In this document: one piece after another, positions 6,339 to 10,528 of the stretch
Numbering within the stretch: the stretch's first letter is position 1
Layout: every line of letters begins with the position of its first letter
Source of the DNA: Haloarcula vallismortis ATCC 29715
GTDB lineage: Archaea; Halobacteriota; Halobacteria; Halobacteriales; Haloarculaceae
DNA length: 64,000 nt
Reading direction: 5' to 3'
Assembly: GCF_000337775.1 (NCBI RefSeq)
Contig: NZ_AOLQ01000038.1
Location: 62,001 to 126,000 of the forward strand
Translations under genes and position numbers: made by a program
Notes under the pieces: generated by a model
Told to the model about the DNA's origin: nothing
The model's input: only the letters and a program-made list of their open reading frames with translations
Databases searched by the model: none

Positions 6339-7418
6339 TCAGTTTTCAGTCAGATCACTCACCGCTGCTGGCGGTGAGACGCCGTGTCCCGGTCCGTCGA
6401 TATTGATACGTGGACCGAACGACATCGACGGCGGAGTTTCATCGAGCAACAGGTGGCCATCCAGATCGACGTGGTCGAAGGCACCGAGCCCGGCGGCAAG
6501 GTGAGCACTCGTCGCAATCCCGGTTGCGCCTTCGAGCATACAGCCGAGCATACAATCAATCGAGGCGGCCTCGGCGATGTTTGCGATGGCCGCTGCCCCG
6601 AGGAGTCCCGATTTCCCGAGTTTGATATTGATCACGTCGGCAGCCCCGTCGCGAACCACAGCGGTCGCGTCCGCGGGCGTGAATACAGCCTCGTCCGTAG
6701 CGACGGGGACCGGAAGTCTGTCGCGTGCCCGCCCGAGACCGCGGATGTCGTCTTTCGGCGTCGGCTGTTCGACCAGAGCGAGGTCGACCCCGGCCGCGGT
6801 CACCTCCTCGACAAACGTCGCCGCGGCTTTCGGCGTCCAGCCCTGGTTCGCGTCCACTGTAATCGTCGCGTCGGGCGCTGCGTCCGCGACTGCAACCGTT
6901 CGGGCCACGTCGGCGTCGATCTCGCCCCCGGTTTTGACCTTGATGTGGTCGAAGCCGGCAGCCGCGGCGCGCGTGGCTCGTTCGGCTGCCGCGTCGGGCG
7001 AGACTATCGGAACGGTGATGTCGGTGGTAACTGTGGTCGGGGCTCCACCGAACAGTTCCGAGAGCGGGATACCGCGGTCACGACAGTACGCGTCAAGGAG
7101 TGCCGTCTCGACGGCGAACAGTGCCGAAACCGCTCCGGGGATTGCGGCCCGCAGGTCGCGGGTGAGTTCGCGGTAGTCGGCGAGGGGAGCCCCGTCAAGC
7201 ATCGACGTTACCGACCGTGCGGTTTCCACAGCAGCTGCCTGTGTCTCACCGGTCACCGGCGGCAACGGGGACCCCTCTCCGTGACCGACGACGCCTGAAT
7301 CCGTCTCCACTGCAACGACCAGATTCCGCGCTCTCTCCCGGGTGCCAAGCGAGATTTCGAACGGTTCGCGGAGTTCGCGGTCGAGTGGTTCGACAGAGAC
7401 ACGGTCGATACGGGTCAT
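6339..7418 (-). CDS. dgcA: Enolase-superfamily epimerase (DgcA / dipeptide epimerase type)
   Basis: A 359-residue member of the muconate-lactonising branch of the enolase superfamily. Catalytic residues are all visible: K160-x-K162 (HIKVKTGG), metal ligands D189 (TVDANQGW), E217 (LVEQP), D242 (ATDEAVF), K266 (INIKLGK), and the DLD motif at 318-320 that in L-Ala-D/L-Glu epimerases holds the substrate amino end. The ATG overlaps the stop of the upstream DUF1611 gene (ATGA), so the two are co-translated. In bacteria the DUF1611 partner marks the DgcN-DgcA route, in which D-glutamate is N-acetylated and the product epimerised. Assigning that route here is inference; a dipeptide epimerase is the alternative. 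Confidence 0.75.
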   Translation of the reverse strand: MTRIDRVSVEPLDRELREPFEISLGTRERARNLVVAVETDSGVVGHGEGSPLPPVTGETQAAAVETARSVTSMLDGAPLADYRELTRDLRAAIPGAVSALFAVETALLDAYCRDRGIPLSELFGGAPTTVTTDITVPIVSPDAAAERATRAAAAGFDHIKVKTGGEIDADVARTVAVADAAPDATITVDANQGWTPKAAATFVEEVTAAGVDLALVEQPTPKDDIRGLGRARDRLPVPVATDEAVFTPADATAVVRDGAADVINIKLGKSGLLGAAAIANIAEAASIDCMLGCMLEGATGIATSAHLAAGLGAFDHVDLDGHLLLDETPPSMSFGPRINIDGPGHGVSPPAAVSDLTEN

Positions 7419-8458
7419 AGGGACTCCAGAACGGCCGCAAGGAGTGCCTCTGGGCCGTCATCGTCGTAGATGTTCGCCGCCGGGAGCCCTGTTCTGTCGG
7501 TTTCTGCCTCTGGGTCACCCCACGTGGAGAGGGCGGCGACTGTCGTCCCTGTGAGGTCCGTAATCGCGCGGCGTTCGGCCTCGACACCGGCTACAGTGAG
7601 GTCGTCGAAGTGCGAGCGGGCCTCCCTGGAGGGGTCGTCGGCCAGCACCACGGCATCAGGGGCCGCTCCGTGCAGGAGGCCGAGTGTCACCCCGCCGTAG
7701 GCGGTGTGCGTGAGCGCGGCCTGCCCTTCGACGAACACGATATCCTGGTCCGCTGCGACATCGAGCACCATATCCTCGACGACGCCCGAAACGAAATCGG
7801 CCGGCACCCGGTCGATGACGACACCGCGGTCTGCGCCGACGAGGATGCCGGTCTGTCCCGTCGCGACCCACCCGGCGTCGAGTCCGGCGTCGGTCGCCGC
7901 CCGGTACAGTTCGAAGGTCGTCGTTCGCTTCCCGACCGCACAGTCGGTCCCCATCGTCAGGACGACATCCGCGTCGGCCTCGCTCCCGCGACCGTCACCG
8001 AGCGTTAGATCGGCGACGGCAGGGGGTTTCCGAACGTCGACGAGGTCGACACCGTGTTGCTGTGCGCGCTCGGTCCAGGCTGTGCGCTCGCTCAGGAAGA
8101 CGTGCAAGCCGGAGACGACATCACAGCCCCGCTCCATCGCGTGCGTGATTGCTTCAACCCAGGACTTCGGGAGCTCACCGCCAGCGGGTGCGACGCCGAT
8201 GACAAGGACGGCGGCGTCTGGGGCTTGATCCAGCGCTTCGGTGACGGTTTCGACGACCGGAACATCGTCGGCAGCAGGCCAATCAAGGGCCGAGCCGGCG
8301 CTGGGGCTCGGACACGTCGAGTCCACGACGGCCTGCGCGTCGAACAGTTCGCCGTGCATAACGATACCGTTGGCCGTCTTGCCTTCCGGCTGTCCGAACT
8401 CTCCCTCTGCGAGTACAACGGCGGGCGTGCCTTCGTCGTATTTTCGCCGCAAGTCCAT
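7415..8458 (-). CDS. dgcN: DUF1611 protein, DgcN-like D-glutamate N-acyltransferase
   Basis: A 347-residue protein of the DUF1611 family: an N-terminal Rossmann-like half (VLAEGEFG..KTANGIV) and a C-terminal P-loop half with TDCAVGKRTTTFEL at about residues 173-186. Bacterial DgcN belongs to this family and acylates D-glutamate before its epimerisation by DgcA. Its tail overlaps the dgcA start by 4 nt. The ATG at 8458 is chosen; a TTG at 8488 and a GTG at 8470 are in-frame alternatives. A Bat-type regulator gene lies divergently right upstream. Confidence 0.72.
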   Translation of the reverse strand: MDLRRKYDEGTPAVVLAEGEFGQPEGKTANGIVMHGELFDAQAVVDSTCPSPSAGSALDWPAADDVPVVETVTEALDQAPDAAVLVIGVAPAGGELPKSWVEAITHAMERGCDVVSGLHVFLSERTAWTERAQQHGVDLVDVRKPPAVADLTLGDGRGSEADADVVLTMGTDCAVGKRTTTFELYRAATDAGLDAGWVATGQTGILVGADRGVVIDRVPADFVSGVVEDMVLDVAADQDIVFVEGQAALTHTAYGGVTLGLLHGAAPDAVVLADDPSREARSHFDDLTVAGVEAERRAITDLTGTTVAALSTWGDPEAETDRTGLPAANIYDDDGPEALLAAVLESL

Positions 8459-8593
8459 ACTGGGAGACACCGCAGGCGTGACTGACAAACCAGAGCCTTA
8501 CATGTGTGGCACCCAGTGAGGACACTGGAGAAAGATTTGGAATGAAAGCGAGAACAGGTGAGCGCTATCGCGTCGGAGAACACAGAGAGAGCG

Positions 8594-10198: not shown

Positions 10199-10528
10199 AC
10201 CACAGTGGACTTGGGACTAACATAAAAAAGTCCGGTCATAGTGGAACAGGTTTCGGCGGTATTATACCGGATTTTGATAGCCAGTGGCGTTCAGATTACC
10301 TTCAATTATATTTCTACCATCTATAATTGAAACCATCATCTCTCAGTTCAATGTGGGCTATATTCAGGGGTAGTACACTACCCGAATTCCATCAGAAGTG
10401 GACTTTTATACACGTACAGCGACCGCAACGAAGTGAGAATTTGCCAGAGGCGACTCCGATGATTTGTTACCGCGGAGTTAGCTATTATCATGAACTTTTG
10501 CGTGTGTATTTGACGAGGCACAGAATGC
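10199..10528. promoter_or_regulatory. iclR-nhaC divergent regulatory region
   Basis: This 330-bp gene-free stretch holds the iclR promoter (GGACTTTTTTATG on the minus strand, 10221-10233), a 13-bp palindrome CGGTATTATACCG (10257-10269), a perfect 10-bp inverted repeat TTCAATTATA/TATAATTGAA (10301-10310 and 10322-10331), the nhaC-side promoter GGACTTTTATACAC (10400-10413), and a small hairpin ACTCCG/CGGAGT (10453-10458, 10473-10478) in the predicted nhaC leader. AGTGGACTT occurs at 10204-10212 and 10397-10405. A GAGG (10515-10518) precedes the nhaC ATG. Confidence 0.7.
10301..10331. repeat. Perfect 10-bp inverted repeat, candidate operator
   Basis: Arms TTCAATTATA (10301-10310) and TATAATTGAA (10322-10331) are separated by 11 bp, so the arm centres are 21 bp apart, two helical turns. 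This suits binding by a dimeric regulator such as the neighbouring IclR protein, though no binding is shown. Confidence 0.65.

Follow-up and report, generated by a model that had tools for sequence, protein, structure and literature searches.

Few operators of IclR-family regulators have so far been defined in archaea, and the locus described here raises the question of whether one such regulator controls both its own gene and that of a divergently transcribed carrier, and through which DNA sequence it would do so. The window, i.e., the whole stretch of 64,000 nt that was analysed, comes from Haloarcula vallismortis ATCC 29715 (GCF_000337775.1, contig NZ_AOLQ01000038.1, positions 62,001-126,000, forward strand). 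In it, iclR on the minus strand and a gene for an NhaC-family carrier on the plus strand diverge from a 330-bp spacer (Table 1). Two promoters with the same rare element offer a compact and testable case of a bacterial-type regulator acting on TBP/TFB promoters.

The divergent iclR-nhaC pair is present in 12 out of 32 Haloarcula genomes, representing 12 species, as well as in two genomes of a second genus (g13), with IclR being 64% and NhaC ~75% identical between g13 and Haloarcula. Relatives close to the window's species are H. amylolytica, H. sebkhae, H. argentinensis and H. japonica. The spacers of the 12 Haloarcula species were aligned, chance expectations were estimated from dinucleotide shuffles of the 330-bp spacer, and genome-wide motif counts were obtained by pattern searches of the 3.9-Mb genome.

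Table 1. Features of the iclR-nhaC locus, in positions of the window.
Feature	Position	Strand	Evidence or remark
IclR-family regulator gene, 250 aa	9446..10198	minus	PF01614 98.6 bits (cut-off 24), PF09339 34.2 bits (cut-off 22)
AGTGGACTT copy between iclR TATA box and start codon	10204..10212	.	possible extra half-site, weak
iclR promoter: TATA box (~10222-10229) and shared element	10222..10245	minus	minus-strand reading TTCCACTATGACCGGACTTTTTTAT
CGGTATTATACCG palindrome, 13 bp	10257..10269	.	species-specific, probably chance
10-bp inverted repeat	10301..10331	.	species-specific, unconserved
nhaC promoter	10388..10410	plus	dyad TCC-N9-GGA 10388-10402, then C, then TTTTATA TATA box 10404-10410
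nhaC 5' leader, strongly conserved	10433..10528	plus	start inferred from TATA box; SD-like GAGG 10515-10518
7-codon uORF M(N/I)FCVCI-stop in leader	10490..10513	plus	11/12 Haloarcula; significance uncertain
NhaC-family (PF03553) carrier gene, 517 aa	10529..12082	plus	PF03553 117 bits
DUF7513 gene, small OB/S1-like protein, 90 aa	12079..12351	plus	PF24353 101 bits, PF00575 24 bits

The regulator and the carrier

The regulator combines an N-terminal HTH_IclR domain with a C-terminal IclR_C effector domain, and the scores of both domains lie above the family cut-offs (Table 1), which places it in the IclR family; against IclR of PDB entry 1mkm it yields an E value of 7.6e-20. Its scores stay below the NCBIfam cut-offs of the IclR subgroups BhcR, PcaR/PcaU, KdgR, IclR and AllR, the best being that for BhcR (133 versus 350 bits). 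The recognition helix is alike in the Haloarcula and g13 proteins (STSTIHVHLKTL and STSTVHAHLQTL, respectively). As the iclR TATA box is found ~24 nt 5' of the ATG in all 12 Haloarcula species, the iclR mRNA is probably leaderless, a state reported for 72% of Haloferax mRNAs (PMC4983044).

With respect to the carrier, a preliminary description of this DNA had left the choice between a Na+/H+ antiporter and another carrier of the same fold. Its membership in PF03553 is borne out by the family score, whereas the score for the NhaC equivalog TIGR00931 is only 52.4 bits against a cut-off of 370, and the designation as a Na+/H+ antiporter is uncertain. A Halobacterium gene first named nhaC3 turned out to encode the arginine/ornithine antiporter ArcD (PMC7193027). 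No relative of the carrier was found in the PDB, and plasmid records contained two haloarchaeal nhaC copies and no ArcD.

The Haloarcula cluster encodes a DUF1611 (DgcN-like) protein, an Ala/Glu-type epimerase, an ornithine-cyclodeaminase-family enzyme, a nucleoside hydrolase and an M24 peptidase, and in genome G114 iclR, the DUF1611 and epimerase genes and nhaC are clustered, too. Together with a dipeptide-epimerase/DgcA-like gene, the DUF1611 gene (DgcN-like with 189 of 480 bits) makes up an operon at 6339-8488 that accompanies iclR and nhaC also in G114 and that might possibly serve the catabolism of D-glutamate or of dipeptides. In other haloarchaea a gene for an M20 peptidase is divergent from nhaC (L047:47-1324, L050:3-1301). 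Because of this gene context, i.e., the enzymes of the cluster and the neighbouring M20 peptidases, an amino-acid- or peptide-derived substrate is suggested in preference to plain Na+/H+ exchange, as with ArcD.

The DUF7513 gene lies directly 3' of nhaC in 25 out of 25 haloarchaeal loci, and in the window its start codon overlaps the nhaC stop codon (ATGA). In two plasmid records the neighbour of nhaC is labelled as a TRAM-domain protein.

A shared element at both promoters

In the alignment of the 12 Haloarcula species the two promoter blocks have identities of 0.89 and 0.93, as compared to a mean column identity of 0.60 across the central spacer (10240-10385). When Haloarcula is compared with g13, alignment above the chance level is confined to the promoter blocks (0 of 400 shuffles for each pair tested) and, weakly, to the nhaC leader, and the centre of the spacer yielded no alignment between the two genera.

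The motif that had previously been placed at both TATA boxes is indeed found there, as AAAAGTCC at 10226-10233, reading GGACTTTT on the minus strand, and as GGACTTTT at 10400-10407. On the coding strands the promoters read GTTCCACTATGACCGGACTTTTTTAT (iclR) and ATTCCATCAGAAGTGGACTTTTATAC (nhaC), and at both of them, in 12 out of 12 species, a dyad TCC-N9-GGA abuts the TATA box and spans the BRE position. On the iclR side (10231-10245) every arm column is identical in all 12 Haloarcula species; on the nhaC side TCC and GGA are equally invariant, and the bases between the arms vary.

The shared promoter motif is far above chance. GGACTTTT appeared on both strands in none of 20,000 spacer shuffles, for a motif that was picked after it had been seen, and of GGACTTTTWTAY there are three copies in the 3.9 Mb, two of them being these promoters and the third lying within an ORF. 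Given that the genome contains 152 copies of TTTTWTAY, such a box is rarely preceded immediately by GGAC, and as the haloarchaeal BRE consensus is CGAAA (PMC4983044), GGAC is also atypical for the BRE position. Of the 25 exact copies of GGACTTTTWTAY in the 32 Haloarcula genomes, 17 sit at the iclR-nhaC locus. When the two promoters are compared in their true register they agree at 6.9 of 14 upstream bases, the mean in other registers being 3.4, with one close competitor at offset 25 (6.3 of 14).

In g13 GGACTTTT is kept, as is CCGGACTTTTTTAT at the iclR promoter, and at the nhaC promoter GGACTTTTATA is retained in L024 and GAACTTTTATA in L026, the nhaC-side element being given as TGGACTTTTATAT or TGAACTTTTATAT; the TCC arm of the dyad is absent from the g13 promoters. 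In turn, 17 nhaC loci with no iclR next to them were compared, two of them from Haloarcula with an 84% identical NhaC, and none has GGACYTTT upstream. The iclR and nhaC promoters of G114 also lack the motif, despite a 61% identical IclR and the presence of nhaC in the same cluster. A search for a wider regulon found GGACTTTT neither at the DUF1611/epimerase promoter nor at the ornithine cyclodeaminase promoter nor in the G114 cluster. The rarity of the shared element, its conservation and its link with the presence of iclR are thereby established.

The putative iclR and nhaC operators are 166-168 positions apart in Haloarcula and 157 and 165 in g13; as this spacing varies, a constant helical phasing between them was considered and dropped.

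Proposed regulation

A shared, rare and conserved element of this kind is consistent with co-regulation of the two genes and with autoregulation of iclR, and IclR-family proteins usually control their own genes along with one or two operons next to them (PMC8222616). The reading that we prefer, with a probability of roughly 0.55, is that the element serves both promoters as an operator for IclR, to which the regulator would bind as a dimer and thereby block TFB/TBP. Accordingly worded as a mechanism, the two divergent promoters would carry the same operator, TCC-N9-GGAC directly before the TATA box, the neighbouring IclR dimer would most likely occupy this twin element, and iclR and the nhaC-DUF7513 operon would have their levels set together by one regulator. 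Because the site overlaps the BRE and abuts the TATA box, bound IclR would most likely occlude TFB/TBP at both promoters, and since an identical site lies at an identical place, the same sign is predicted for iclR and nhaC. A ligand, probably an amino-acid-related metabolite, would then free the DNA from IclR, and the two palindromes in the middle of the spacer would play no part. Of the earlier proposal that one IclR regulator sets the levels of both itself and the carrier, the pairing of the genes (stable in 12 Haloarcula species and two g13 genomes) and the shared conserved element thus speak for the regulatory link, and the palindromes are given up as its sites.

Known operators provide partial parallels. 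In line with what is proposed here, the operators of GenR and of IclR group 1 combine autoregulation with control of an adjacent operon (PMC8222616), and the GenR site, ATTCC-N7(5)-GGAAT, contains a TCC...GGA dyad like the present one (PMC8222616). However, at N9 the spacer exceeds that of GenR and of most group 1 sites by 2 bp (9 as against 5-7), and the group 1 motif GKTYCRYW3-4RYGRAMC is not matched, the TCC/GGA arms being similar but separated by N9 instead of N7-8. Furthermore, bacterial IclR operators belong to bacterial promoters, whereas the element described here is part of an archaeal BRE/TATA promoter. Among archaeal examples, SPS2 of Natrinema sptA (TTCTT-N10-AAGAA) is a semi-palindrome over the BRE and acts as a negative element (PMC6085418); it differs from the present element in its sequence and in serving a single promoter.

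XacR of Haloferax volcanii, a member of the IclR family, adjoins the genes it controls, and its own promoter is described as having a semi-palindromic negative element, which covers the WW motif (PMC6085418), whereas the element here covers the BRE. In the literature examined, no shared twin element is reported for XacR. Unlike the repression proposed here, XacR activates its pentose cluster. In Halobacterium ArcR, a regulator of arginine catabolism, controls the arc genes, with ArcD being an NhaC-like carrier (PMC7193027); the neighbours at the present locus, as identified by Pfam, are different from arcABC.

Since activation is the main mode of action of the characterised haloarchaeal IclR proteins XacR, GacR, RhcR and MscR, which activate their respective pathways (PMC11519228), the sign could be opposite, and activation is a serious rival, even if we consider it the less probable of the two. 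The operator would be the same, but a TATA-adjacent IclR would, together with its ligand, recruit TFB/TBP at promoters with a poor BRE and so activate nhaC and itself; the presence of GGAC instead of CGAAA indeed suggests a weak basal promoter. However, the element overlaps the BRE and abuts the TATA box, where bound proteins usually occlude (PMC6085418), and most archaeal activators bind upstream of the BRE (PMC6737238).

It is unlikely that GGACTTTT is a BRE variant for an alternative TFB and no IclR site at all. Haloarchaea possess several TFBs, and GGACTTTT is placed exactly at the BRE position of both promoters. However, a BRE that is specific for one TFB would be expected at many promoters, whereas the exact motif is found at only these two in 3.9 Mb, and the motif is missing upstream of nhaC at the 17 loci without a neighbouring iclR.

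The nhaC leader

In 14 out of 14 sequences 124 nt separate the ATG of nhaC from its TATA box, and therefore a leader of ~96 nt is expected on the nhaC mRNA. With a mean identity of 0.86-0.95 among the 12 Haloarcula species, the leader is conserved above most of the spacer, and a strong, single-copy match to it exists in every one of the 12 genomes with iclR, as against no such match in the remaining 20 Haloarcula genomes. The leader hairpin of the preliminary description (ACTCC/GGAGT, ~10453-10478) is able to form in the window's species, but no fold is conserved among the species, although the sequence and length of the leader are: the RNAalifold value of -9.1 is no better than that of column shuffles (mean -12.9), and Rfam contained no match to the leader. 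A conserved structured RNA or riboswitch was rejected on these two counts. The leader as a coding sequence was rejected as well, as its variation shows no codon periodicity, and a longer frame from 10460 encounters stops in several species and has no start in others.

Conservation, single copy number and constant length of the leader, the uORF and the coupling of nhaC with DUF7513 at all 25 loci would all fit a control of nhaC that is mainly post-transcriptional, acting via the uORF, via the SD-like GAGG or via a protein, for instance the co-encoded DUF7513, with promoters that are merely similar. Such a scenario is nevertheless improbable, as no conserved fold, Rfam match or codon periodicity was found, the g13 leader resembles that of Haloarcula in little beyond ATTTGTTWCCGG, and the twin element is left unexplained. 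Even more doubtful is the idea that the leader might be an RNA or DNA control element that is recognised by DUF7513, the OB-fold protein encoded alongside, or by a leader peptide, which would add a second, translational feedback under the IclR operator.

Between the two genera the ungapped similarity of the leaders is at chance (18 matches versus 17 expected); a ATTTGTTWCCGG-like core (10462-10473) is common to the Haloarcula and g13 leaders with a small shift. In L016 the stop codon of the uORF is lost and the frame continues into nhaC, which could start 13 codons earlier in this case.

Palindromes and a direct repeat in the spacer

The remaining sequence features of the spacer are located where they had initially been reported, i.e., CGGTATTATACCG at 10257-10269, TTCAATTATA and TATAATTGAA at 10301-10310 and 10322-10331, and AGTGGACTT at 10204 and 10397. 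Among spacer shuffles, 0.35% contain a perfect inverted repeat of 10 bp whose loop is no longer than 11, and the present one is the sole case in 64 kb; it is thus mildly unusual in the single sequence, yet unconserved, given that only 3-7 of the 10 arm positions pair in the remaining 11 Haloarcula species and that the identity of the arms (0.60-0.61) equals the spacer mean. For CGGTATTATACCG the identity is 0.66, with 2-4 of 6 symmetric pairs in the other 11 species. Palindromes with 6-bp arms and a loop of at most 1 are seen in 15% of spacer shuffles, as is any 9-bp direct repeat (15%), so that chance readily accounts for the 13-bp palindrome as well as for the 9-mer.

The alignment between species, which had been put forward together with the palindromes as their test, hence finds both of them near the spacer background, and in this comparison of 12 species they are peculiar to the window's species and probably not binding sites; by that criterion they were ruled out as operators for lack of conservation. 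Binding of a regulator dimer to the 10-bp repeat, as originally suggested, and/or to CGGTATTATACCG is most improbable, for in spite of the perfect arms, their rarity in shuffles and the usually semi-palindromic nature of archaeal operators (PMC6085418), the repeat is missing from all 11 other Haloarcula species though their regulator is 97-100% identical, and its conservation is that of the background. A perfect palindrome in one genome can therefore mislead, and it is the short element at the TATA box that survives comparison. As to the 9-mer, GTGGACT at the AGTGGACTT site is absent in the second genus and present in 10 of the 12 Haloarcula species.
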